Assembly: GCA_949123685.1 (NCBI GenBank)
Contig: CASBHZ010000074.1
Coordinates: 1 to 15,085 of the forward strand
Origin: an uncultured Bacteroidales bacterium
GTDB lineage: Bacteria > Bacteroidota > Bacteroidia > Bacteroidales > Muribaculaceae
Reading direction: 5' to 3'
Length of the DNA stretch: 15,085 nucleotides
This document shows positions 232 to 14,995 of the stretch, piece by piece. The notes under the pieces were generated by a model. The model was given only the letters and a program-made list of their open reading frames with translations, did not search any database and was not told the origin of the DNA. Position 1 is the first letter of the stretch. Each line of letters starts with the position of its first letter. The position numbers and the translations under genes were made by a program.

Positions 232-2166
232 TCACTTACTCGATTTTAAACAATTTCTCAGATCCGCGTTAAAAAGCTGCCTTCCGTCACGGCATATAAA
301 GATCTGCTCCTCTCTCCCTTTTGTGAGGTTGCGGAGCCAAAGCACGGCATTCGCAGGCACGTCATACGTGATGTCGAACCCTTCTGATACCTTCCTCCCT
401 AGGGACTTCCATCCTTCCCTGTCGAAATAGAACAGTTCATACTCCTCTCCCGGCACGACATAGTTGTCATCGTTACGCGGAATGAGGAAAATGCTGTTTA
501 CAATCCTGTCGGAATCAATTCTGAATATAATATCTCCGTATTCAGGTTGGTAGCTTATCCATGTTAGGATGTCTCCATCCACGAGCAAATTCTTCTCTTC
601 TGCCGTGAGGCTTCCGGTAATTACCGACAGTGGCAAACGTTGCAGAGCGAGAGAATCAGCTGTCGCCATCACTTCTCCGATCTCGGAGCAACGCATTGGA
701 GATGGCTGCAGCCGGATGTATCTTTCATTACTGCCCATGCTTACCGGAATACGGTAGAAATTATGTAACGGCATGGTGTATATACTGTCCACATCACGCC
801 AGGGACCATCCGCGGTCAATCCGACCTGCATCCTTATACCTATGACAGAACGCATCTGTCCGGGATGATGAAGCCAGAATGGCATCTTGCGTTTCATTGT
901 CAGACTTTCCATTCGGGAAATATCCGGTATAAACTCATGTACGTTCCCATCGCTTTTGAGCATGAATGGATTGCCACATGTGCGGTAACCACCCCCATCA
1001 AACGTCACCGGGAAATATATCAGATCCGGTTCTATGTCACGGAACACGGCGTTGCCATACGCCTTTTTCTCAGCTACGTCTATCGGTCTGTAACCCTCAG
1101 GGGAGAAAACACCGAGAAATACCGTTCCCGATTTCTCACCTGTCCGCACTGATGCTTCATTATGCCCGAAATAATCCGCAGTAACATCCCGAAATCTCGG
1201 GTTCAGCAATTCAGCGGGGACATCAGGGATAGAGGAGAGTTTACTTACCCTATCGGTGTTTATTTCCCATGTCCGCCTATAGACTTTCCCTTTTCTCCTG
1301 CCATCATAGTGCACAGAATCTCTTGTCGGAGGAAATCGACTGTTATCGAACATACGGAAGGTATTGTCTTCGGTATCAAGAACCATGCACCATTGATGCG
1401 ACGTGCCGTTGTCGGGAGATACAAGTATCTCATCGATTGTCACAGGAACCCCGAAGGCACGCATGGCATACGCGATCCTGTCGCAGTCGTCGCGACAGTA
1501 TCCCACCGGAGCGGAGAGCAGTCCGGTTGCCGGACGATGTGGATTTCTCAGGTTATTGTTATAATGCACATCACCCAAAGCTTCCGAAATAATAGCAGCT
1601 GCAGCTACAGAGCCGAAAGCGGCATCTATCTTGCCAGATAATGAATCGTATGCGGCACGATACTCCACACGCCATTCGGTGACCGGTTCATTCCCGATAC
1701 GGTAAGGCAGAAGAAATTCAGAAAAATCCGAAACAGAGAGACTGCGGTTCCATATCCGCTTCTCTTTATACATCCAAGCGTCTTCAAAGTTGTTTATGAG
1801 ATAATCTGCTGTCAGAACCTGCAGGTCTGGGATATTTCGGTGTGGAATAAGCTCATATCGTCTGCCTGCAGCAAGCTGCAGGGAATCGAACTGCCAACTG
1901 CCGTTTGGATGCGGAAGCTGATGGTAAAGGCTCTCAATAGAGTCGATACCCTCGCCACACAAAGAATACCTTCCGATCATTCCTCGTACGAGACTGGCTG
2001 CAGCATCCCCCTTTTCGCCATCGTACCTGTCAATAAACTTACAAATCTCATTTGCATTCTCTCCCGCTTCCGATAATGCCAGCTCCTGCAATGCAGAATC
2101 GGAGGTAGAACAGCCTGAATTAAATATTACAAAGAATGATAATACTACTCTTAAAAAATATTTCAT
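232..2166 (-). CDS. Transglutaminase-like lipoprotein
   Basis: A 644-residue predicted lipoprotein. A hydrophobic N-terminus ends in FNSGC, so Cys19 would be lipidated and the protein anchored in an envelope membrane. About residues 185-295 resemble the transglutaminase-like cysteine protease fold: GYCRDDC, then RAFGVPV, then SHQW and FDNS, giving a likely Cys-His-Asp triad of Cys224, His257 and Asp274. Cys224 fits better than Cys228 because 15 residues separate it from the Gly of GVPV, as in related Bacteroidales proteins. The C-terminal part (about 520-635) has a DGD...YGDIIFRI pattern typical of F5/8-type (discoidin-like) beta-sandwich domains. Substrate is unknown; in Bacteroidales such proteins may cleave or bind peptides or glycans at the surface. 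I chose the ATG at 2166 because it overlaps the stop of the preceding gene as TGATG and leads straight into the signal peptide; a TTG four codons upstream is less likely. It is more GC-rich than its operon partner. Confidence 0.85.
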   Translation of the reverse strand: MKYFLRVVLSFFVIFNSGCSTSDSALQELALSEAGENANEICKFIDRYDGEKGDAAASLVRGMIGRYSLCGEGIDSIESLYHQLPHPNGSWQFDSLQLAAGRRYELIPHRNIPDLQVLTADYLINNFEDAWMYKEKRIWNRSLSVSDFSEFLLPYRIGNEPVTEWRVEYRAAYDSLSGKIDAAFGSVAAAAIISEALGDVHYNNNLRNPHRPATGLLSAPVGYCRDDCDRIAYAMRAFGVPVTIDEILVSPDNGTSHQWCMVLDTEDNTFRMFDNSRFPPTRDSVHYDGRRKGKVYRRTWEINTDRVSKLSSIPDVPAELLNPRFRDVTADYFGHNEASVRTGEKSGTVFLGVFSPEGYRPIDVAEKKAYGNAVFRDIEPDLIYFPVTFDGGGYRTCGNPFMLKSDGNVHEFIPDISRMESLTMKRKMPFWLHHPGQMRSVIGIRMQVGLTADGPWRDVDSIYTMPLHNFYRIPVSMGSNERYIRLQPSPMRCSEIGEVMATADSLALQRLPLSVITGSLTAEEKNLLVDGDILTWISYQPEYGDIIFRIDSDRIVNSIFLIPRNDDNYVVPGEEYELFYFDREGWKSLGRKVSEGFDITYDVPANAVLWLRNLTKGREEQIFICRDGRQLFNADLRNCLKSSK

Positions 2167-3179
2167 CACAGATTCCAAATATAAAATACCGTTGCATCCT
2201 GATCTTGAGAATACCCGATCAGCCTATGCTTCTCAATATCAAATGATATAGAATATATATCCTTATCGAGAACATACATATTTACCGGTGTGTTATTTTT
2301 TATATTGTAAGTTTCAATGATGTTTCCGGTTTCACTGCCATCAGTTGATTTTAGGCAATAGAAATTATCCCCATCATACGCAACACTCAAATATTTGTAT
2401 TCCAATTTATTATAATCTTCAATCTTAGACTGATCCTGTGTATCACCATATGATTTGATTAAACTAATGCCATCTTTTGTAATATCGTATATTTCAATCA
2501 GATCAATGTATTTATATGCAACAAATAATTTTGAATCATATACGCTCTGAATTAAATCAAACGGAGTGTAGCTGTATTCCTTATCTCGGATAGGATTTTC
2601 ATATTCCCACAATATCTTTTTATCTTTAAGGTCAACAAAATGCCATGCTGATTTTGAAGGGGAATCAAGTTTCATTAAAAACGTATCATTGTCAACCTGA
2701 GTTATGAAAGTATAGGGATTTGTTAAGCCGTCTTCATCAACCGGAAGTTCAAATTCTGCATTCACTTTAAATGGCACACTCGTTAGATCATAGGTATATA
2801 AGGTCCTTCGCATTATATCATAGGACAATACATTATTAAAAATATTGGTTTCCCCGGAGTTGAATGATACATACTCATCCGGTCCATTCCCTATATTAAT
2901 ACCGCTTTGTATTAATTCAGAAGTTGTATCGGAATATTCGTAAAGCACGTCATTGTCTTGATCGTCAACGCTAAACAATGCTATGCTGTGAGGTAAAACT
3001 TTCCATCCGACAATATTGAAAACTCTTTTTACAACAATACTATCATTCACATTCTTACGAATTGTAGAACTAAATTCTTTCTTCGAAAAGGTCCGAACAG
3101 AACCCGATTCTTTTTTCACACAACTTGTTCCCAACAGTATTAGAACTATAACCGATATTATTGATTTAAATTTTATCAT
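2166..3179 (-). CDS. 6-bladed beta-propeller lipoprotein (third copy)
   Basis: A 337-residue predicted lipoprotein: a hydrophobic segment ends in LLGTSC, with Cys20 the lipidation site. The family marker GNGPDEY is at residues 97-103, followed by repeating beta-strand stretches with aromatic and Asp-Gly turns, as in the Bacteroidales 6-bladed beta-propeller (DUF5128/TolB-like) proteins. These are binding scaffolds with no known enzymatic activity and usually unknown ligands. The frame is open back to 3398, but that extension runs through an intergenic repeat; the ATG at 3179 directly precedes the signal peptide and has an AGAAGAT sequence just upstream. The stop overlaps the ATG of the transglutaminase-like gene by one base, so the two are probably translationally coupled. 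The gene is strikingly AT-rich compared with that partner. Family membership is fairly secure; function is not. Confidence 0.85.
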   Translation of the reverse strand: MIKFKSIISVIVLILLGTSCVKKESGSVRTFSKKEFSSTIRKNVNDSIVVKRVFNIVGWKVLPHSIALFSVDDQDNDVLYEYSDTTSELIQSGINIGNGPDEYVSFNSGETNIFNNVLSYDIMRRTLYTYDLTSVPFKVNAEFELPVDEDGLTNPYTFITQVDNDTFLMKLDSPSKSAWHFVDLKDKKILWEYENPIRDKEYSYTPFDLIQSVYDSKLFVAYKYIDLIEIYDITKDGISLIKSYGDTQDQSKIEDYNKLEYKYLSVAYDGDNFYCLKSTDGSETGNIIETYNIKNNTPVNMYVLDKDIYSISFDIEKHRLIGYSQDQDATVFYIWNL

Positions 3180-3197
3180 ATCTTCTATATTTATTCC

Positions 3198-3719
3198 CCA
3201 ACCACTTACAACCACAGAACAACCACTAAAGATCCATAAAACCTTTTGAGTGTAGATGTAAGATTGGTTGTTACGTGGTTGTGAATGGTTGGAACTTTTG
3301 TACGGAGAGGTTTGACATGGCGATTTAAACACAGGGACACAGAGATACAGAATTTTTAGCTCAATATGGTGTTTAATGAAGTAGAGGCGCGGAGGCATCT
3401 TGCGATGCTGACAGAGGCACGGAGGCCGATGGCAGTCTCTTCATTCTCCTCAAGCTCCGTGCCTCCATAAGGTCGTTCACGACCCTCCGTGCCGGTAAAT
3501 ATCAATGCTTGCTTCTTACATCTGAAACTCTGTACCTCTATGCCTCCGTGTTAAATTTTCTAATCATATTTTGCTTCTTACATTCCATATTTTATTTATC
3601 CTCCAACCACTTACAACCACGGAACAACCACTTACAACCACGGAACAACCACTTAAAGATGCATAAAACCTTTTGAGTGTAGATGTAAAATTGGTTGTTA
3701 CGTGTTTGTGAGTGGTTGG
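3198..3719. repeat. Composite inverted-repeat intergenic element
   Basis: It fills most of the 606-bp gap between two propeller genes. Reading inward from both ends: (1) 3198-3292 is a hairpin-forming unit with 28-nt arms 3198-3225 and 3265-3292 that pair at 24 of 28 positions; (2) 3604-3719 is a second copy of that unit, with right arm 3692-3719 and a left arm extended by a tandem 21-bp duplication (3610-3651); (3) between them, 3326-3350 is the inverse of 3530-3553; (4) innermost, an 11-bp perfect inverted repeat pairs 3414-3424 with 3455-3465 (GAGGCACGGAG). The whole is roughly symmetric around 3440-3460. No reading frame in it looks coding. It may act as a transcript-end hairpin, a boundary between operons, or a non-autonomous mobile sequence; the sequence alone does not decide. 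The remaining 3720-3785 holds nothing I recognise. Confidence 0.85.
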
Positions 3720-3785
3720 AAAATTGGTCTGGCTTATCTGGGATGTTGATATTCGACATTATGTCACATTCCGGTTAATTCTGAA

Positions 3786-4850
3786 TCATGACCCGCCCGA
3801 ATTTCTTTTCATTGAGACTTTTACCAGTTTCCCGGGAACTCCGAAGATGATTTGTCCCTTATGGTAGGCAACGGCGTCTCCAAGGTTTTCATGCTCCTCT
3901 TCAGTCAGATAATACAGGTGTGATACATATGTGTCCGTATTGACGATAAGGACATAATGCCTGTCTCCGCTATTGAAAGTATGCAACACGTTTCTGCCGT
4001 CGGAAAGGATGTCAAGGGTATTCACATATCCCTCCTCTGCAATCCTGTCCCACAGATTAACAGTTCCTTCATTCCTGTCTCCTTTTTTAAATTCATACCA
4101 TTTACCCTTGAAATCAAGACGATACAACGGTTCGGTGCTATCAGACCCACAGAGATAAATTACATTTTCCGTCGTTGGCATATACAATAGCGAATCTCCG
4201 GACAACTCTGCAAATGAATGCCAGTTTTCAAATGTAATGTTTTTAAGGTTCTCAGGTATTCTCAACATTGTTTTAGATCCCGCCCCTTTTTTGTATATCA
4301 GTTTGGAATCATTGCCTTCATGTGCAATATTTCCTCTATCAAACCAGTATGCATCGTTCATGGAATCATAAAAGAAATGAAAAATATAGTCTTCCACTTT
4401 CTCTCTACGCACAAAGTTCAAGCCACGATCAAGGTACATCAACTTCTCGTCAGAATGAGGATCAAGCAATATGATTTTATCAGACGTAACATTAAAATCC
4501 CTTATATTCAGAAACTCTTCCGGTCCTTCTCCTTTGTTTACAAAGCTGTTGATAATATTTCCGTCAGAATTGTATACATACAGACCCCGGTCTTTGAACA
4601 TATCCATTACAAAGATCGAATCCCTGTCAAACACTACTTTTGACAGGTGTCCCGGAAGGTGCCCAGTCTCTGAATCTTTTAATGTCATTACATCCACACT
4701 CTGGACATTCTCTGTCAATGGCAACGCCTTATTCAAATCGACCTCGACAGCTTTTGTTTCACTCTCCGATTCTTTATTGTTTGTACAGGCATATGCGATC
4801 CCCGCCAAAACAACTACAACAAAAATTTTTACGATTCGTGATATATTCAT
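3786..4850 (-). CDS. 6-bladed beta-propeller lipoprotein (second copy)
   Basis: A 354-residue predicted lipoprotein with a hydrophobic N-terminus ending in IAYAC (Cys22 lipidated), then a Lys/Glu/Ser-rich linker. GEGPEEF at residues 107-113 is the family marker, followed by strand-turn repeats such as LYVYNSDGNI and YLDRGLNF, expected for a propeller. It is only distantly related to the copies on either side, so these are old paralogues or independently acquired members rather than a fresh tandem duplication. A 265-bp gap containing a palindromic element separates it from the first propeller upstream. I found no TAnnTTTG box directly ahead of it, so it may depend on read-through from the peptide operon. 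Function is unknown beyond probable binding of a ligand or partner in the envelope. Confidence 0.87.
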   Translation of the reverse strand: MNISRIVKIFVVVVLAGIAYACTNNKESESETKAVEVDLNKALPLTENVQSVDVMTLKDSETGHLPGHLSKVVFDRDSIFVMDMFKDRGLYVYNSDGNIINSFVNKGEGPEEFLNIRDFNVTSDKIILLDPHSDEKLMYLDRGLNFVRREKVEDYIFHFFYDSMNDAYWFDRGNIAHEGNDSKLIYKKGAGSKTMLRIPENLKNITFENWHSFAELSGDSLLYMPTTENVIYLCGSDSTEPLYRLDFKGKWYEFKKGDRNEGTVNLWDRIAEEGYVNTLDILSDGRNVLHTFNSGDRHYVLIVNTDTYVSHLYYLTEEEHENLGDAVAYHKGQIIFGVPGKLVKVSMKRNSGGS

Positions 4851-5115: not shown

Positions 5116-6135
5116 TTACAGATTGCCTAATATTTTGGGAATTTCATATACCATGGCATCTGCTTCGTCAGAACGAGGTGTCACACCAATAATCAAATGT
5201 CGTTTTGCATCTATTGCAATTCTCATGGCGGATTCAATTTCCAAGTCAGCTATAGGGTTTCCGGCATAGTCTAATACAAAAACATGGCTATTTTCATCTA
5301 TATCAGGATCTCCGTATAGCAACCAGACATAGTTAGTGGTTAAATCTACATCTAAATAACATTCCTTTGTCTTTTCATTATTTTTTTCATCTTTGGAATA
5401 TCCTGTATATGTATATGAGCCTATGATTTCACCATCTGTACCATGAAGTATAACAGTTGGGAAACATCCGTATATTTCCGCACATGCATTATTTTTTTCA
5501 TTGTATGCCATGGAACGAAAAGAAATCACTTCATTTGCAGGCATATTAATGTCTTTAAAATTGTAACCTAAAGGCCATTTTTGTACTTTTTTACTCTTCG
5601 GATCAAATGAAACCATGCCATACTGATAATCTCCACGTATTGCTATATATTTGCCCTCAATGTTTTTGATAACACTTAAAGGAACATACCGTGTAAAATC
5701 CTTACCAAAAGAGATTTCCTCTTTTAATTTATAATTATTTTTAGGATTAAATGAATATAAACAAATTTTCTTGGGATCGTATACTGACAATGAACCCTCG
5801 GAATCAATTACTTGACCAAATACTCCGGTGACTCCGGTAAATTCATCGGGACCTTCCCCTTTATATGCTAATGGTTTGGGATTAGAAAATGTGGAATCTG
5901 TCATTAGTAGATAATGGTCTGTCATATATGTATAAAACATATAACCATCGCCTGCTATTTCTACAGAGCCCACATTATATTGTTCCGAGTCTGGAAACTC
6001 TATCGCTCTGCCATCCAATGATATGTGTGTTGGAAAATCAGAAAAACAACGTTCTTTGTTTTTCTCGTTGTCAGTACAAGACATTATACTCAAAATGAGT
6101 ATAATGTCTAAACATAATATTATCCGCGTGTGCAT
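5116..6135 (-). CDS. 6-bladed beta-propeller lipoprotein (first copy, in the NVEALA operon)
   Basis: A 339-residue predicted lipoprotein: residues 5-19 are hydrophobic and LSIMSC places the lipidated Cys at 20. GEGPDEF at residues 93-99 marks the Bacteroidales 6-bladed beta-propeller family. The ATG at 6135 was chosen because it opens directly on the signal sequence; an upstream start at 6162 would add nine polar residues ahead of it. The chosen start lies inside the end of the NVEALA peptide gene (16-bp overlap, different frame), implying one mRNA and probably coupled translation. Its first codons contain a perfect 13-bp hairpin. The gene is AT-rich, like the third propeller. In Bacteroidales such propellers often sit beside NVEALA peptides, which suggests binding of or response to the peptide; that role is inference. 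Confidence 0.87.
   Translation of the reverse strand: MHTRIILCLDIILILSIMSCTDNEKNKERCFSDFPTHISLDGRAIEFPDSEQYNVGSVEIAGDGYMFYTYMTDHYLLMTDSTFSNPKPLAYKGEGPDEFTGVTGVFGQVIDSEGSLSVYDPKKICLYSFNPKNNYKLKEEISFGKDFTRYVPLSVIKNIEGKYIAIRGDYQYGMVSFDPKSKKVQKWPLGYNFKDINMPANEVISFRSMAYNEKNNACAEIYGCFPTVILHGTDGEIIGSYTYTGYSKDEKNNEKTKECYLDVDLTTNYVWLLYGDPDIDENSHVFVLDYAGNPIADLEIESAMRIAIDAKRHLIIGVTPRSDEADAMVYEIPKILGNL
6079..6109 (-). promoter_or_regulatory. Perfect RNA hairpin inside the signal-peptide codons of the propeller gene
   Basis: AGACATTATACTC (6079-6091) and GAGTATAATGTCT (6097-6109) form a 13-bp perfect stem with a 5-nt loop. On the transcript it starts 11 nt after the last base of the peptide gene's stop codon and covers codons for about residues 9-19 of the propeller protein. 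No U-run follows, so it is not a typical intrinsic terminator. It could protect the 3' end of a processed peptide message or dampen propeller translation so that the peptide is made in excess. Confidence 0.55.
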
Positions 6136-6386
6136 CTGGATTCTGTTTTGGATCCTTCCCAATCTTCAATTCTCTCGCATTTTGAGCAATCAACATATGA
6201 TTTCCCATATTTTTGGTTGGCTGAGCTATGGCAAGGAATTCTGTCTCCACTCTCCCCACTAACAAGGGCTTCGACATTAGCCATCTGAATATCCGACATT
6301 GCATCTTTCTGCTGCGCGTTTACTCCAACGTAAGCGGAAACACCCAGAACTGCCATTACGGCAGCGAAAATGATTCTCTTTTTCAT
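6120..6386 (-). CDS. NVEALA-type exported peptide
   Basis: An 88-residue precursor. Residues 1-24 look like a signal sequence (two Lys, hydrophobic core, VNA-QQ). Residues 31-41 read SDIQMANVEAL, matching the conserved ANVEAL(A) motif of the Bacteroidales NVEALA family, followed by SGESGD as is usual there. The C-terminal part carries four cysteines (52, 67, 70, 85), two of them as CSKC, and is otherwise polar. Known family traits are a short exported protein with a conserved leader motif and a variable cysteine-bearing tail; the biological role is unestablished. The gene lies 30 bp after the thioredoxin-like/DUF1573 gene and overlaps the next propeller gene by 16 bp, so all three are one operon. 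A plausible reading is a leader-directed secreted peptide whose cysteines are oxidised or modified by a neighbour. Family recognition is strong; the function is inferred. Confidence 0.88.
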   Translation of the reverse strand: MKKRIIFAAVMAVLGVSAYVGVNAQQKDAMSDIQMANVEALVSGESGDRIPCHSSANQKYGKSYVDCSKCERIEDWEGSKTESRCTRG

Positions 6387-6416
6387 TGTCTTGAATTTTT
6401 TTTAATGATTAAACCT

Positions 6417-7295
6417 TTATTTTATGAATCCGTGGAAGATGAGTCTCTCCGGATTCGGTCTCTCCTTGAACCAGACATCGGCATAGCGGTGGAACTGCTG
6501 CGAGATCGTGTCGGCTACGTAGATGATCTCGACATCAGCATATTCTCCGCTTTTCAAGACATCCCAATCCACTTTGGCACTGATACAATGACATGAGGGT
6601 GTAACATCCTGCAGTGTCAGGTCTAATTCTGTGTCATTATTAAATCTGAAAAGTTTGGTTATTGTATCTCCCTTGCTGACCACGCCAATACCACGTACGG
6701 GATTCTTACAGATTTGTTCTTCTTCATCTCCCAATGTCTTTCCGCTATCTGTTGAATCAAAGATTAGGTGACTATACAGCTCCTTGATCTTCGGATTATA
6801 GACAGGATTTCCCAAAGCGATAATCTTGTTGTCTGCGTCAAGAAGGAATGTCTGATGTTCAGGTCTGGATGGGAGCGGGGTGGTTCTGCTGAAAAGTCCT
6901 GCCGAGTCTATGGCGACCGGATTGTGGAAGTTGTTGTCTCTTATGAGCCTTTCAATCTCCTCCCGCTTATCCGAGCCTACTATCATAAGGAAGTTGACAT
7001 CAATATCGGGAGAGGATTTGAAGCTGTTGATCACCTTTTCCCAGTCCTTGAGTTTCATACGGCAGTTGGTGCATCCGGAGGAATCGACATAGGTGACGAT
7101 CTTGAAATCGGCGGCATCGAAATCGTAATCCACGGGGACATTACCTACCTGAAATCCAAGTTCACCCGGAATTACGATTTCCCTGCCGACCCACTCGGCA
7201 ACGATATCCTGCTGCTCCTTGTTAGTGCCCGAACAGGATATTATTAATGGAAGCAATAATGGTATTAGACGATAGTTTTTTCTTAAGGAAAACAT
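6417..7295 (-). CDS. Thioredoxin-like / DUF1573 lipoprotein
   Basis: A 292-residue predicted lipoprotein with two recognisable parts. After a signal sequence ending in LIISC (Cys21 lipidated), residues about 60-180 resemble a TlpA/thioredoxin-like fold: KIVTYVDSSGCTNC has a CxxC redox pair at Cys75 and Cys78, and a later FLLDADNKIIALGNP matches the strand pair following the cis-proline region. Residues about 200-292 match DUF1573, an immunoglobulin-like domain, with its typical TPSCHC and a following VDW...GEYADVEIIY. Such proteins recur in Bacteroidales exported-protein clusters; the redox substrate is unknown. The frame is open back to 7493, but the ATG at 7295 precedes the signal peptide and the extension runs into repeat DNA. 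As first gene of the peptide operon it could keep the peptide's four cysteines in the right redox state; this is inference from adjacency. Confidence 0.85.
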   Translation of the reverse strand: MFSLRKNYRLIPLLLPLIISCSGTNKEQQDIVAEWVGREIVIPGELGFQVGNVPVDYDFDAADFKIVTYVDSSGCTNCRMKLKDWEKVINSFKSSPDIDVNFLMIVGSDKREEIERLIRDNNFHNPVAIDSAGLFSRTTPLPSRPEHQTFLLDADNKIIALGNPVYNPKIKELYSHLIFDSTDSGKTLGDEEEQICKNPVRGIGVVSKGDTITKLFRFNNDTELDLTLQDVTPSCHCISAKVDWDVLKSGEYADVEIIYVADTISQQFHRYADVWFKERPNPERLIFHGFIK

Positions 7296-7459: not shown

Positions 7460-7555
7460 CTAACCACTTACAACCACGGAACAACCACCTCAAGATGCAT
7501 AAAACCGATTAAGTGTAGATGTAAGATTGGTTGTTCCGTGGTTGTGAATGGTTGG
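7460..7555. repeat. Intergenic inverted repeat, copy 3
   Basis: This is the same unit as at 3198-3292 and 3604-3719: left arm 7460-7487, a loop containing AAGTGTAGATGTAAGAT, and right arm 7528-7555. The arms pair at 25 of 28 positions, the best-preserved copy in the window. It lies in the 447-bp gap between the lacZ-type gene and the NVEALA operon, upstream of the candidate operon promoter, so it separates the two transcription units. Confidence 0.85.
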
Positions 7556-7562
7556 AAAATAA

Positions 7563-7742: not shown

Positions 7743-10940
<3,198 letters not shown>

Positions 10941-11573
10941 TCACTCAGGCGTTTCGAGCAGCAACGTGTCAATTTCAGTCTGAGCCGATGTCTGGACGAC
11001 AGGATCGAAACTCTCACTCAACGATATGGTATCCTTCTCTTCAAGATCAGTCATCGTGTCTTTCACCGGTTCCTTGGGAGCCTCATCCTGATAAGTGAAT
11101 ATAGGCTCTTCAACGATACTGTCTTGCATAAGGATAGGATTCTCTTCATCCTCGCTATTCCCATTACGTGGATTCATGTTTATTTCCCCGCTGTTAAGTG
11201 TAGTTGTCGTCATTAACATGCCGAACACAAGGAAGAGGAGACATATAGCGCTCAGAAGTTTGTCAATTCCCAAGAAACGAATTTCATGACATTCGGAGGT
11301 TCCTTTTTTCAATACCCTGCATATGAGAGCCGCCATCGGGCAGGCTGAACCTAAAAGCCATATAACAGACACGATAGACAAAGCCATGAATCCGACTTCC
11401 GGACCAAGGAGACCCACAAATCCCAAAAGCACACCGACAACACCGGCAGTCACAATCAGCCACGCCCCGACAGAAACCAACGCGTCCTTTCCGCTTGTGA
11501 CTCCCCCGAAATCAGAATATTGCCTAAAAAAGGGTATTATGAAATATCTTTCAAAAAAACCGATATGAGTCAT
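10941..11573 (-). CDS. Hypothetical three-helix membrane protein
   Basis: A 210-residue protein of no family I recognise. Three hydrophobic segments (about 31-56, 61-86 and 104-124) are likely membrane helices. The N-terminus is aromatic and basic (FFERYFIIPFFRQY). Residues 130-210 form a soluble tail rich in Glu, Asp, Thr and Pro, probably disordered. The loop between helices 2 and 3 has two cysteines nearby (Cys85, Cys95). It lies between the phage-like block and the beta-galactosidase gene on the same strand, 69 bp before the latter. The only visible promoter for it ends four bases before the ATG, so translation may be leaderless. It has no apparent phage or sugar-use signature. Confidence 0.7.
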   Translation of the reverse strand: MTHIGFFERYFIIPFFRQYSDFGGVTSGKDALVSVGAWLIVTAGVVGVLLGFVGLLGPEVGFMALSIVSVIWLLGSACPMAALICRVLKKGTSECHEIRFLGIDKLLSAICLLFLVFGMLMTTTTLNSGEINMNPRNGNSEDEENPILMQDSIVEEPIFTYQDEAPKEPVKDTMTDLEEKDTISLSESFDPVVQTSAQTEIDTLLLETPE

Positions 11574-11663: not shown

Positions 11664-12248
11664 TCAGTCCATTATCTCGCGAATCTTACAAGCCGTCTTC
11701 TCCACCACTTCAGATATTAAGCGCCGGGGAATCCATAACGAGTCGCCCGATTCGAGAAGCGGCACCGGCAAGTATCCGGCACGCTCCACGAAGGCACCGG
11801 GATCGGAAGACCCTATAAATTCGAGTCTCTTCCTGCATCTGCCTTCCACTATCGCCACCGCAGGTGATTTCCTTATATTCATACGCGACGGACGCGGCGC
11901 GAAACGCAGTGAATACACCGATGAATCCGAAGAAACAGCCGTGGTGACGGAGCGCTTCCAATCACTCATCCGGAACACGATCAGACGCAAAAAGTCGCAC
12001 GGTAATTCCAATTCGCCTCGACCCGGTGACACCCATTCAAAATCGGCATCCATCTCCAGCCATTCGTCAATATTCCCTCTGTCGGCATTCATGACAACAT
12101 GCTCCGCAATATCGGGAACCACCTCGGCTATAAGGTCTGCAAGACAAGTATGAGGATAACCGAACTCAGTCTTGTCCATAATTATTTCCTCGTTTTCATC
12201 GAGGTATTTAATCACTTTCGATATAATTTCACGTATTTTAATTTTCAT
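11664..12248 (-). CDS. Possible phage head-tail connector/adaptor protein
   Basis: A 194-residue soluble protein. The N-terminal part is helical (residues 1-20 and 36-56), residues 78-100 read RGELELPCDFLRLIVFRMSDW, and the end (175-193) is again helical. The LP-x-DFLRL pattern between helical segments resembles connector and tail-adaptor proteins of double-stranded DNA phages, where such helices line the head-tail junction. Its place two genes after a capsid-like protein, on the same strand, fits. The assignment rests on pattern and position, not on a recognised family motif. A 7-bp repeat array begins only four bases before its ATG, so its translation-start region lies within repeat sequence and has no Shine-Dalgarno-like element. 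Confidence 0.5.
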   Translation of the reverse strand: MKIKIREIISKVIKYLDENEEIIMDKTEFGYPHTCLADLIAEVVPDIAEHVVMNADRGNIDEWLEMDADFEWVSPGRGELELPCDFLRLIVFRMSDWKRSVTTAVSSDSSVYSLRFAPRPSRMNIRKSPAVAIVEGRCRKRLEFIGSSDPGAFVERAGYLPVPLLESGDSLWIPRRLISEVVEKTACKIREIMD

Positions 12249-12252
12249 GTTG

Positions 12253-12465
12253 GTTTTAGGTTTTAGGCGTTAGGCGTTAGGCGTTAGGCTTTAGATGTAT
12301 TCTGAAAACTGAAAACCTATAGCTGAAAACTATTCAGGCGTTAGGCTTTAGGCTTTAGAATGGCTATCACCTAACGCCTAATGCCTAAAGCCTAAAGCCT
12401 AAAGCCTAAAGCCTAAAGCCTAACACTAAAGCCTAATGCCTAAAGCCTAACACTAAAGCCTAAAC
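12253..12465. repeat. Opposed arrays of a 7-bp repeat
   Basis: Six tandem units of the GCGTTAG/GCTTTAG/GTTTTAG type occupy 12253-12294 and three more 12338-12358. The complementary type (CCTAAAG, CCTAACG, CCTAATG) runs from 12370 to 12465 in about fourteen units, some shortened to six bases. The two orientations can fold on each other into a long imperfect hairpin. Between the two forward arrays lies a short stretch with CTGAAAACTGAAAAC and another CTGAAAACT. The array reaches to within two bases of the stop codon of the 74-residue gene and four bases of the next ATG. Units vary and no spacers separate them, so it is not a CRISPR array. Confidence 0.9.
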
Positions 12466-12467
12466 TC

Positions 12468-12692
12468 TCACTTCCCCTTCTCTGTTTTGAGGAGAAGTAT
12501 CTTTCTTTTTTTAAACCAGTGACTTTGCTCTATGAGGTGGATCACTGCCGGATTGTCAGTAGTGAACGTGGCGGGAGACACGCCATATCCGGTAACGGCT
12601 CCACCTGTGAAATGCACGCGCAACGTGGTGCGCCCCACCGGGATGAGCGCATTCCATTCCATCATCCCGGCTACTCCATATGTTTTCTTCAT
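12468..12692 (-). CDS. Small conserved-looking protein in the phage block
   Basis: A 74-residue soluble protein with no signal peptide or membrane segment. It opens MKKTYGVAGMMEWNALIPVG and contains alternating beta-type stretches (TTLRVHFTGG) followed by TGYGVSPATFTTDNPAVIHLIE and a basic end. It resembles small hypothetical proteins that accompany capsid genes in Bacteroidales phages and prophages, but I cannot name a family; a capsid accessory role is possible by position. Opposed 7-bp repeat arrays flank it: the upstream one ends 17 bases before its ATG and the downstream one begins two bases after its stop. It therefore looks like a self-contained cassette between the capsid and connector genes. 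Confidence 0.65.
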   Translation of the reverse strand: MKKTYGVAGMMEWNALIPVGRTTLRVHFTGGAVTGYGVSPATFTTDNPAVIHLIEQSHWFKKRKILLLKTEKGK

Positions 12693-12708
12693 AATAGTTA
12701 TTTTTAAA

Positions 12709-12795
12709 GCTTTAGGTTTTAGGCTTTAGGTTTTAGAAATTTGTTGCAAAGAGCCTAAAGCCTAACGCCTAAAACCTAAAACCTAATGCCTAAAG
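12709..12795. repeat. Opposed 7-bp repeat arrays after the capsid gene
   Basis: Four units of the GCTTTAG/GTTTTAG type (12709-12736) face six of the CCTAAAG/CCTAACG/CCTAAAA/CCTAATG type (12754-12795) across a 17-nt loop. They can form a hairpin of about 28 bp. The array ends one base before the stop codon of the capsid-like gene. It has the same units and orientation order as the array at 12253-12465, so the two presumably share an origin. It may serve as an mRNA-processing or pausing hairpin between capsid and downstream genes. Confidence 0.9.
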
Positions 12796-12796
12796 C

Positions 12797-14317
12797 TTAT
12801 CCCACCTCAATTTCCCCCGCATAGGGTTGCCACCCGTTTTTCTCGGATCCATCGTCTCCTACCACTTTGACAGCCTGCCAGATCTGACCGATACGTGCCG
12901 AGGGTGACATCCCGGGACAATCGGCTGTAAGGTAGAACACGTCGCCCGGAAGCGCATCTTCCGGCGCCGATTCGCTATTCCACATGCGGAATGAGAACGA
13001 CCCTTCGGTAGGCTTGTCGCCGTCCCCGTCTATCCAGATATGACAACTCCCCTTAAGGGCAAGCGCATCCCAAATCAAGATACCGTTGCGGGTTGCCTCT
13101 TCCCCATCCACCCTATCACTGAAGCTGTGTTCCGCCGAATAGACATAGTGAACAAGGCGATTTTCCCCGATCAATGCGGCAGAATTGCTCCACCCAAGGC
13201 GATCAAGAGTCGGCTCCCGCTTTATCTCGATGTCTCCAAAGACAGTATGGAAATTAGTCACGGTCCACCCTACCGAATTGACTTTTGTGGTTATCTGTAT
13301 CTCCGGATGCTTCGAGAAGTCGATGCATTGTATCTGCTCAAGAAGATTCTTGCCTGCAAGCAGAAGTGCCGTCTTCGGAACATCTTCACCAGTGAAAAAC
13401 ATTTTAGCGAGGGCGATAACATCTTCCACGGTCCATTTGCCCTTGTGCATAAGCTCCCGCTTGAACTGCCAACGCAAACCTTCCGTGCAATACACATATT
13501 GCAAACCCATGCGGGGGACGTTCATCTTGAACTTTCCGGCACGTCCCGCCCAAAGGGTGCGGTTGCCCCTGACTTTGAAATTGGCAATCGCCTGCTCCGC
13601 GATTATAGCTTTCGAAAAAGGTATGCGCTTACGCTGCGATTCAAAATAGTCTGACACCACCTGGTTCATGCCGCGTTTCTGAAGATAAATCTTTGTGGGC
13701 TGAGGCACTATCAGATCCGGATCCACCTCTTTCTGCGTCTCGTAGAGGGAGTTGGCAAGAATCACGATCTTAGTGCCCGCCGGTATGCGGGGCACACTCG
13801 AAAATTCATCTTCCCGCTGAGACTTACGCCCATTGACGGCACGCACCACAGGATTATTGGTGGTAGGATCCACAGCAACCACGAACAACATCAATTCCTT
13901 ACCCGGCGTGCGGGTATCTCCATCGGGAGTGTAACCGTCAACACCTTTCACCAGCAAAGTGGTGTAGGGTCTCGGAAGGTTCTGGTCCTGAGCCAACAGT
14001 GGCAATGTAACCTGCATCTTGTTCTGTTCGTCGACATCTTCAGCGACAGTGATCAGACTACGGGCTTCGTCAATCATATAATGCTCCACCTCCGGACTGT
14101 TCACCTTAACCCGCTTGGCGCGCAACATCAGATTCATCAAAGGGGTATCATCCGAATTAAATCGGAACAATTCGTCGTCAATATCGCTTTCCACGAAAGA
14201 TCCGGCAGCAATGCCACCTGTAGCTTCGATAGTTGCCGACACAGTCGCAGGCGCGCCCGGCACCTGAGTCTGAAGGTTTGCCGTTCCGGAAACGGGATTC
14301 AAATTTTCTGCATTCAT
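12797..14317 (-). CDS. Phage major capsid-like protein
   Basis: A 506-residue soluble protein. Residues 1-35 are Ala/Thr/Pro-rich and flexible; residues 45-85 (DELFRFNSDDTPLMNLML, then KVNSPEVEHYMIDE) resemble the N-arm that precedes the shell domain in several phage capsid proteins. The middle part holds long mixed alpha/beta stretches, for example DPDLIVPQPTKIYLQKRG and a following QVVSDYFESQRKRIPFSKA. The C-terminal 90 residues look like an added beta-rich domain (CHIWIDGDGD onwards). Size, composition and placement directly after a scaffold-like gene fit an HK97-fold capsid protein, but I cannot name the specific family, and the fold is inferred. No frame disruption is seen, so the gene appears intact. 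Confidence 0.62.
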   Translation of the reverse strand: MNAENLNPVSGTANLQTQVPGAPATVSATIEATGGIAAGSFVESDIDDELFRFNSDDTPLMNLMLRAKRVKVNSPEVEHYMIDEARSLITVAEDVDEQNKMQVTLPLLAQDQNLPRPYTTLLVKGVDGYTPDGDTRTPGKELMLFVVAVDPTTNNPVVRAVNGRKSQREDEFSSVPRIPAGTKIVILANSLYETQKEVDPDLIVPQPTKIYLQKRGMNQVVSDYFESQRKRIPFSKAIIAEQAIANFKVRGNRTLWAGRAGKFKMNVPRMGLQYVYCTEGLRWQFKRELMHKGKWTVEDVIALAKMFFTGEDVPKTALLLAGKNLLEQIQCIDFSKHPEIQITTKVNSVGWTVTNFHTVFGDIEIKREPTLDRLGWSNSAALIGENRLVHYVYSAEHSFSDRVDGEEATRNGILIWDALALKGSCHIWIDGDGDKPTEGSFSFRMWNSESAPEDALPGDVFYLTADCPGMSPSARIGQIWQAVKVVGDDGSEKNGWQPYAGEIEVG

Positions 14318-14335
14318 TTTCTTAAATTCTATTGG

Positions 14336-14401
14336 TTAGTGGTTAATGTTTAATTAAGTAGTAGCTTAATGTTTAAGCAAGTAATATGTAAGTTAGTGGT
14401 T
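14336..14401. repeat. Short direct repeats between scaffold-like and capsid-like genes
   Basis: TTAGTGGTT occurs at 14336-14344 and 14393-14401, and TTAATGTTTAA at 14343-14353 and 14366-14376. They fill the AT-rich 96-bp spacer between the two genes. This may be simple local duplication; I see no promoter box in it. Confidence 0.6.
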
Positions 14402-14413
14402 CAGTATACTTTA

Positions 14414-14995
14414 TCATCCGGCATCTCTGGCAAGATCGAATATCGACGAGACCCGACGCGATGAGCGGCTTGCATTCCCTTGCCCCGACGGATGAGGAAG
14501 TCCGTCGGAATCGTCCGGCTTCATATATTTCTCGGCAATCTGCGCATTACGTCCATGCAGCTCCCCTTCCGCAAATGCCTTGGCAACTGCATTCTCATAG
14601 TCAAGTCCGCGCAACGCTATTTCCAACAATTCCACCGTAAGCGCACCCGTGCGCCACGCTTCTCCAATATCCCCGAGCAGCTTCACGCCCTGCTCCATCT
14701 GACCTGCAGGTATTTCTCGTCCTTTGGCAAAAGATTCTGCCGCCAATTGAAACTCCGGTGTTATTCCTAAATCAGAATTATTTCCCTCACCTGCATCTTC
14801 ATTACACGAAAATCCATTATTTTCTTCGGATTCATCGGGAATTGCGACATCGTCATTACATGTTTCAGATATTTCTTTTCCCGGAAAGAGATCTCCCGAC
14901 ACGTCATCGAGCAACTCTCCATTCACCGGAGGAACAGTTTTCTCTTCAGGATTCTGCTCACACCTGTCTTCTTTCTTTTTTAATATCTTCAGCAT
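14414..14995 (-). CDS. Possible phage scaffold protein
   Basis: A 193-residue soluble protein. A short basic start (residues 1-9) is followed by a long acidic, low-complexity region (about 11-78). A helical part (about 79-160) ends in GELHGRNAQIAEKYM, and a short tail carries GLPHPSGQG. An acidic, helix-rich, poorly ordered protein placed directly before a capsid gene is the usual profile of a capsid scaffold; similar proteins ending in an EGRNA-type helix and a short tail occur in Bacteroidales prophages. The role is inferred from composition and position, as scaffolds are poorly conserved. The ATG at 14995 lies 90 bp from the window edge; in those bases I see no consensus promoter, so transcription probably starts further right. 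Confidence 0.5.
   Translation of the reverse strand: MLKILKKKEDRCEQNPEEKTVPPVNGELLDDVSGDLFPGKEISETCNDDVAIPDESEENNGFSCNEDAGEGNNSDLGITPEFQLAAESFAKGREIPAGQMEQGVKLLGDIGEAWRTGALTVELLEIALRGLDYENAVAKAFAEGELHGRNAQIAEKYMKPDDSDGLPHPSGQGNASRSSRRVSSIFDLARDAG

Follow-up and report, generated by a model that had tools for sequence, protein, structure and literature searches.

Peptide tails and their propellers: a modular organization of NVEALA peptide loci in Bacteroidales

The stretch of DNA considered here (the "window": the 15,085 nucleotides (nt) from position 1 of contig CASBHZ010000074.1, from an uncultured Bacteroidales bacterium of the Muribaculaceae) carries on its minus strand a gene for a small peptide precursor of the NVEALA family (N), preceded by a thioredoxin-like/DUF1573 lipoprotein gene (D) and followed by a β-propeller lipoprotein gene (P). 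The new result is modularity: judged by sequence comparison, the leader and the tail of NVEALA peptides are separable modules, each evolving on its own, and it is the tail that the propeller tracks. Tail and propeller very probably constitute a cognate unit, and its movement as a cassette under exchangeable leaders is supported statistically. In the window, D (6417..7295; 292 amino acids (aa); a putative thiol oxidoreductase with a CxxC (CTNC) region and DUF1573) is separated by 30 nt from N (6120..6386; 88 aa; PF14055), which overlaps by 16 nt with P (propeller A; 5116..6135, starting at the ATG at 6135), the proposed cognate partner of the N tail; the tight packing noted in a preliminary description of this DNA is thus borne out by the coordinates. 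That description also spoke of a "dedicated partner set", and this splits in two: the propeller behaves as a tail-specific partner, while D follows the leader, like shared machinery.

The precursor is a member of its family by profile (33.6 bits to PF14055; cut-off 27), with no NCBIfam match at E≤0.01, TIGR04149 included. Its leader comprises approximately residues 1-46 and ends NVEALVSGES; its tail, residues 47-88, holds four Cys with 14-2-14 spacing. A four-Cys peptide made of a leader and a variable Cys-bearing tail is what the preliminary description had seen, and the picture is sharpened by the separability of the two parts. The 216 N whose motif is clear give the consensus LSDLxLANVEALAxxE: the residue after NVEAL is A, S or G in 97%, and E follows three residues on in 91%. 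The number of Cys in these 216 tails is even in 85% (two in 69, four in 88, six in 25). A-L-A is the pattern expected for a signal peptidase I site; because a signal of this type would usually have a shorter stretch from the hydrophobic segment to its cleavage site, the S26 peptidase that some loci encode could matter. (A technical note: an AlphaFold2 model of an NVEALA peptide, with a predicted local distance difference test score (pLDDT) of 47.8, was set aside.)

The closest relatives of the window are two loci, L001 and L002, on genome contigs of one Muribaculaceae isolate. With L002 the window shares 82.7% DNA identity over 999 nt, across D and the leader; this homology ends at 6248, one nucleotide beyond codon 46, that is, at the leader/tail junction, and the propellers that follow are unrelated (similarity 0.03; here and below, the Smith-Waterman score normalised by self-scores). 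With L001, whose tail is like that of the window, DNA homology continues to 6129, almost through N. Among 106 pairs (65 genes) with similar leaders (>0.75) and dissimilar tails (<0.25), the DNA match ends between -6 and +21 nt from the NVEAL codon in 92; for 20 same-tail pairs it ends in that interval in 2, at 57-137 nt in 6 and at 990 nt or more in 12 (median 992). A break near the junction is partly a construction, since the pairs were selected by leader and tail; the unrelated propeller downstream is not.

The comparison of propellers was made in two sets. The discovery set held 94 N-P pairs (3 of 97 were dropped for a tail or leader that was too short or lacked the motif). The replication set held 83 new pairs, 7 from the G450 family and 76 from the G302 family, which is taken as Tannerellaceae by inference only, because all four organism-named homologues of its regulator (see below), among the matches listed, are from Parabacteroides; left out were 13 N that lay too close to the end of a contig and, from 90 N-P pairs, 7 that could not be divided usably into leader and tail. 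When tails are similar (>0.35), leaders dissimilar (<0.5) and loci different, the 21 discovery pairs have a median P similarity of 0.395, against a permutation mean of 0.029, and 0 of 2000 permutations reach the observed value. For the opposite class (leader >0.6, tail <0.25; 50 pairs) the median is 0.031, reached by 409 of 2000 permutations; restricted to different loci (28 pairs) it is 0.041, reached by 1 of 2000, so that leader-similar pairs also have a slight P excess. Replication gave a median P similarity of 0.498 for 57 tail-similar, leader-dissimilar pairs (same thresholds; 74% above 0.25; 0 of 1000 permutations), while P similarity exceeded 0.25 in none of the 60 pairs whose leaders are alike (>0.8) and whose tails are not (<0.25). 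Grouped into clusters, 17 of 20 tail clusters (10/12 plus 7/8) have a median P similarity above 0.25, versus 1 of 16 leader clusters (1/9 plus 0/7). Does the rest of the neighborhood follow the tail as well? In 65 tail-similar, leader-dissimilar pairs both loci have a gene on the same strand behind P. P is similar (>0.25) in 50 of these pairs, but that further gene in just 15: the next gene rarely follows the tail, and the conserved unit therefore largely ends at P.

PF14055 has matches in 20 of the 198 genomes from the isolate's family (E≤0.01; 11 over the cut-off), in 23 of 393 genomes of the order (E≤1e-4; 22 over), in 61 of 123 genomes of the G302 family (E≤0.001; 58 over), with up to 24 copies per genome, and in 9 of 18 genomes of a further family (7 over); among 198 genomes sampled across the phylum it turned up nowhere but in the centre genome itself. 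Neighborhoods were compared between 73 regions around 105 NVEALA matches (the best 47 of 65 from the isolate's family and 58 from the order; 737 kb, with few overlaps) and 40 random regions of the same genomes (446 kb); duplicate loci L065 and L069 were excluded, and 20 further regions were picked for propellers without NVEALA. Hidden Markov models (HMMs) found 153 P in the NVEALA regions versus 1 in the controls, 59 versus 0 D, 25 versus 1 T (a transglutaminase-like lipoprotein) and 117 versus 0 N, the models having been trained on NVEALA loci, which biases their recall toward NVEALA regions. With the same bias, densities per 100 kb are 20.8 versus 0.2 for P, 8.0 versus 0.0 for D and 3.4 versus 0.2 for T, in agreement with the suggestion that D and propeller genes co-occur with NVEALA genes more than expected. 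P is the next co-directional gene of these families for 97 of 115 distinct N (median gap 49 nt) and for 90 of 118 N in a later set. By tblastn, with all propellers of at least 250 aa (the loci's own included) as queries, a propeller lies within 2.5 kb downstream of 194 of the 196 N that have 2 kb of sequence, the match starting within ~500 nt in 170. Random gene neighborhoods, named beforehand as the outcome that would undo the idea of a partner set, are not what was found (compare the single propeller in 40 random regions), and these controls exclude chance as the source of the grouping. (Two side observations: in L250 (6574-7830) and L258 (3225-4391) a DUF4221 protein, possibly an alternative partner fold, directly follows the NVEALA gene; in L249 (N at 3070-3315) the propeller gene that follows is split across frames, and an intact copy is present in L248, of the same genome.)

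What kind of protein is P? Propeller A taken alone (5116-6162) matches no Pfam family at E≤0.01, and so cannot be assigned to PF17170/DUF5128, and no NCBIfam family; it joins the propeller family by iterated HMM. Its AlphaFold2 model (pLDDT 86.8; predicted template-modelling score 0.86) has a predicted six-bladed propeller fold, which Foldseek places with NHL-type propellers (4zlr, E 1.9e-10) and two Bacteroides structures, 3s9j and 4raa; a sequence search of the PDB with the propeller A alignment gave no match at E≤0.1. Over 167 cognate P, the positions with at least 70% identity are the lipobox Cys (99%), the initiator Met, a GxGPxE turn, a single Asp, and one Pro and one Gly besides. This is no obvious catalytic set, and for that reason P is more readily seen as a binding scaffold than as an enzyme, with the conserved acidic residues leaving some doubt. 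(A reading of P as an amidating lyase (PAL, 3fvz) was set aside: the match is at the level of fold, one among many propellers, and there is no obvious conserved catalytic set.) As given in the accessible text of PMC5080379, the surface-export signal of Bacteroidetes is SDDDD-like. At least three acidic residues at positions +2 to +6 occur in none of 165 lipobox-matched P (of 314 examined), and in 5 of 68 other lipobox-like open reading frames under a slightly stricter pattern; this count does not support a surface location, and P probably faces the periplasm.

Some propellers are not paired with an NVEALA peptide. In the NVEALA regions 64 of 252 propellers (at least 250 aa) are not the first propeller after an N, and 35 of these 64 have an N-paired relative; only 2 of 196 N are without a propeller. 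The two other propeller lipoproteins of the window are of this unpaired kind with N-paired relatives. Propeller B (3786..4850, minus strand; PF17170, 97.2 bits), which no NVEALA gene adjoins, is closest to a second propeller of L001 (0.82) and an N-paired propeller of L194 (0.32); propeller C (2166..3179, minus strand), which has a Pfam match below cut-off only and belongs to the P family by iterated HMM, is closest to an N-adjacent propeller of L070 (0.31). (In L179, at 4248-4565, a Cys-rich peptide of 105 aa lies between two propellers; its signal-like leader is of another sort, and it has no NCBIfam match.)

The genes of the window are transcribed in the order D, N, P, propeller B, propeller C, T, so that the two further propellers and the transglutaminase-like lipoprotein reported to lie downstream are indeed there, as Pfam, iterated HMM and conserved residues indicate. 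D, described beforehand as a redox-like lipoprotein, has a lipobox-like LIISC, the CTNC motif and DUF1573 (PF07610: 45.9 bits, cut-off 26.1), and CxxC is present within residues 40-160 in 58 of 60 D proteins longer than 220 aa; the redoxin-type matches stay below the Pfam cut-offs (AhpC-TSA 18.4 versus 26, Redoxin 16.5 versus 26.6). D similarity follows the leader (0.634, 10 pairs) more than the tail (0.287, 14 pairs; all pairs 0.161), and in this respect D behaves like shared machinery that goes with the leader. Of 115 N, 35 have D no more than 1.5 kb upstream; elsewhere D is placed after N or P. T (232..2166, minus strand) has no Pfam (E≤0.01) or NCBIfam match, and its relative in L001 only 16.9 bits to PF01841 (cut-off 23), which is short of the curated domain score; in all 32 aligned relatives longer than 450 aa (of 57, gathered by iterated HMM), the lipobox Cys19, Cys224 and His257 are invariant. 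T thus appears to carry a Cys and a His of catalytic type, as in transglutaminases, and is called transglutaminase-like. By HMMs trained in the same way, other genes too are counted more often in the 73 NVEALA regions than in the 40 controls: S26 signal peptidase (15 versus 0), Wzy_C-like (17 versus 2) and a TPR-like protein (17 genes versus 1; in 13 of 73 regions versus 1 of 40), the one TPR-like protein scanned having TPR matches below cut-off. (In L184, propellers are followed by Wzy_C-like and S26 genes, with no called NVEALA gene.)

In the G302 family, arrays of these genes often start with a divergent gene for a protein, mostly of 320-410 aa, that has transmembrane (TM) segments followed by a C-terminal winged helix. 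A crude hydropathy scan gives at least two TM segments in all 36 members of 300-420 aa. Six were scanned against Pfam: Trans_reg_C passes in L097 and L277, is below cut-off in L246 and is absent from L247, L098 and L261; the C-terminal part of the regulator alignment matches a response regulator of L287 that bears Trans_reg_C. A regulator HMM match is divergent from N and within 600 nt of it in 26 of 40 G302-family regions (2 of the 26 are short, one of these cut by the region end) and in 8 of 68 discovery loci; 3 of these 8 (L120, L128, L133) are histidine kinases, which leaves the winged-helix regulator in 5 of 68. There is none in the 40 control regions, none in the 20 propeller-only regions, and none seen with this HMM in the Muribaculaceae loci L061-L094, some of which have a TPR-like protein in its place, or in the window. 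(Just behind the histidine kinases of L120, L128 and L133 lie smaller matches to the regulator HMM; the peptides facing them have two Cys and another motif.)

The peptides that face these regulators form a class of their own. Among 38 regulator- or kinase-facing tails 35 have exactly two Cys and 31 have C.G.G...C, versus 38 and 13 of the 195 tails that face neither; when the three tails facing kinases are set apart, the figures are 32 and 31 of 35. Reciprocally, 30 loci fetched by regulator similarity contain a divergent N in 25, with two Cys in 22 and the motif in 20; among the 7 N that were new to the set, 6 have two Cys and 5 the motif. Within the G302 family, 33 of 37 genomes with the regulator (E≤1e-35) have NVEALA, versus 28 of 86 other genomes. 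That the two-Cys class are pheromones we consider about an even proposition. (Sensor specificity is not claimed: regulator similarity tracks the tail (rho 0.65-0.70) more than the leader (0.33-0.40), but the same holds for each half of the regulator, and these values come from 30 triples that possibly include histidine kinases, with relatedness uncontrolled.)

How might such a locus work? Roles in export, toxicity, immunity and pheromone signaling are here inferred from the genes. The locus would make a small, secreted, disulfide-stabilised peptide and a propeller lipoprotein specific for that peptide. The leader would take the peptide over the inner membrane by Sec, signal peptidase cutting most simply behind the conserved A-L-A of NVEALA, which in the window reads A-L-V; the disulfides would be the work of D, with its CxxC, and the mature tail would work outside the cytoplasm. 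The leader, the parity of the Cys and D are the grounds for proposing export, cleavage and oxidation. The tail might then be an antagonistic, bacteriocin-like effector peptide and P its immunity-type binding partner, a pair of roles to which we give slightly less than an even chance. In the Parabacteroides-like family, pair arrays stand beside a two-Cys NVEALA peptide that faces the TM winged-helix regulator, probably as a pheromone switch; the window would be an effector-type pair without such a regulator. Taken whole, this account (disulfide peptide, cognate immunity-type propeller and, in the Parabacteroides-like family, pheromone switch) is favored tentatively, at a little under half. Its grounds are the tracking of the tail by the propeller, the mostly even Cys counts, the CxxC of D, the want of an obvious catalytic set in P, the presence of propellers unpaired with an N where N without a propeller are very few, and the regulators with their two-Cys peptides. 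More doubtful is the fullest version: a two-Cys pheromone, sensed by a receptor and transcription factor in one protein (in a few loci by a histidine kinase), that induces mostly four-Cys effector arrays with propeller immunity, while a shared leader lets loci and species exchange the cassettes. No description of such a communication-and-competition system in gut Bacteroidales was found in the literature searched.

Several observations weigh against the effector/immunity account or the pairing on which it is built: 1) Three tail clusters break the rule that P follows the tail, a six-member YC family (median P similarity 0.16), the pair L104/L118 (0.12) and, in the G302 family, a cluster of five (0.05). 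Three members of this cluster of five (L245, L248, L251) have a gene between N and P; because these intervening genes are alike (0.89-0.95) and the one in L245 matches PF17170, the true neighbor there would also follow the tail, and the exception is partly explained. 2) A periplasm-facing P is an odd device for neutralizing a peptide before it enters. 3) Most loci share no gene for export across the outer membrane; those of RND/TolC type are present in 4-6. 4) In the window no regulator of the kinds described above, signal peptidase or O-antigen-ligase-like gene was recognized. 5) Up to 24 copies per genome would fit variation of a ligand or antigen as well. 6) Propellers may serve more than one class of peptide, since precursors of ribosomally synthesised and post-translationally modified peptides (RiPPs) with a double-glycine leader (TIGR04149; L186, 4033-4185; L187, 1614-1880 and 5734-6000) lie 3-9 nt from propellers of the same family.

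Could the mature tail instead be a signal or recognition ligand and P its envelope receptor or presenter, reporting to TM regulators, with no toxin involved? The recurrence of membrane regulators (winged-helix proteins in 26/40 G302-family regions and 5/68 discovery loci, histidine kinases in 3/68, TPR-like proteins in 13/73 regions versus 1/40) and the special two-Cys class that faces them would suit this; arrays with several unrelated tails per regulator go beyond the needs of a signaling pair, most four-Cys pairs have no adjoining regulator of their own, and we consider it rather unlikely. Less likely again, P might fold its own peptide or modify it, as chaperone, scaffold or enzyme; D, S26, T and Wzy_C-like proteins would then be common helpers. 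The enrichment of S26 and Wzy_C-like genes (15 and 17 versus 0 and 2), the probable periplasmic orientation of P and the resemblance of its fold to PAL are consistent with tail-specific maturation, but no catalytic set runs through the 167 cognate P, a quarter of the propellers (the 64 of 252) do not come first after N, and the PAL match is fold-level only and ranked among many propellers. Finally, it is improbable that recombination in the conserved leader merely shifts everything downstream, P following the tail by adjacency with no specific interaction: DNA homology does stop near the junction in those 92 of 106 shuffled-leader pairs and N and P are typically 49 nt apart, but the gene after P follows so much less often than P (15 versus 50 of 65) that linkage was judged insufficient as sole cause, and tail and P stay together at P similarities of 0.25-0.75 despite changed leaders and most later neighbors.

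Comparison with known systems helps to place the effector/immunity account. In polymorphic toxin/immunity cassettes, such as those of contact-dependent inhibition, a constant front is joined to a variable end that is exchanged together with the downstream partner. NVEALA cassettes share this constant front and the co-exchange of end and partner, and the partner does co-vary with the variable part of the peptide; they differ in their very small peptides, signal-like leader and putative toxicity. The Gram-positive class II bacteriocin loci blp and pln have a pheromone-like peptide that shares the leader type of the effectors, partner-paired effectors and a dedicated membrane regulator. NVEALA loci resemble them in these three elements, a dedicated regulator standing beside a distinct peptide class in the G302 family and also in a number of genomes elsewhere in the order; the fold is different and export probably so, the usual regulator is a single TM and winged-helix protein (a histidine kinase in three loci), and NVEALA peptides are not known to have an activity. 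TIGR04149 RiPP precursors, in L186 and L187, are likewise small peptides beside propellers of the same family, but with a double-glycine leader. The bacteroidetocins, to go by the accessible text of PMC6671954, have a 15-16-aa double-glycine leader, a peptidase-ABC exporter and apparently no immunity protein; the same text has Bacteroides lacking a disulfide machinery of general use and gives the credit to a thiol oxidoreductase that is encoded with the peptide, in support of a dedicated enzyme of this kind for such peptides. Like them, NVEALA peptides are small Bacteroidales peptides, with four Cys in the window, beside a putative thiol oxidoreductase gene (here D, with its redoxin scores below cut-off); unlike them, they come with a propeller partner, and their leader is signal-like and ~45 aa long. 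The leader in the window ends NVEALVSGE rather than in double glycine, and there is no ABC exporter among the ten window proteins scanned.

As to the NVEALA family itself, its Pfam entry description names no function. The word is absent from the literature searched (a scope outside which most subscription-journal papers and bioRxiv preprints lie), in which PF14055 brings up papers that, to go by their titles, concern Plasmodium or enzyme annotation only, and the accessible part of an earlier survey of Bacteroidales RiPPs (PMC10352776) has no mention of propeller, thioredoxin, transglutaminase, signal peptidase or DUF1573. The peptide-tail/propeller cassette would give the family a testable function and predicts which peptide matches which propeller; for Parabacteroides-like gut bacteria it suggests a candidate pheromone of peptide nature; and, if the tails are antagonistic, these loci hold many natural peptides, each together with its antidote.

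The window DNA and propeller A have no match in phages, and one G302-family NVEALA peptide has no plasmid match. Upstream of the operon, at 11664-14995 on the minus strand, are phage-structural-like genes, with a match to an SU10-like major capsid protein at 12797-14317 and to phrog_26635, phrog_22323 and phrog_22135, all of unknown function; at 12252-12817, clustered short repeats of CCTAAAG/TTTAGG type flank a small open reading frame adjoining them. Between the phage-like genes and the operon lie a gene without a match (10941-11573) and one for a GH2 β-galactosidase (7743-10913). A repeat of ~100 nt with complementary ends occurs at 3199-3297, 3626-3724 and 7462-7560, close to where propeller C and D begin and in the interval that separates propeller B from propeller C, and similar copies are present in L001 near 12.6-12.7 kb.

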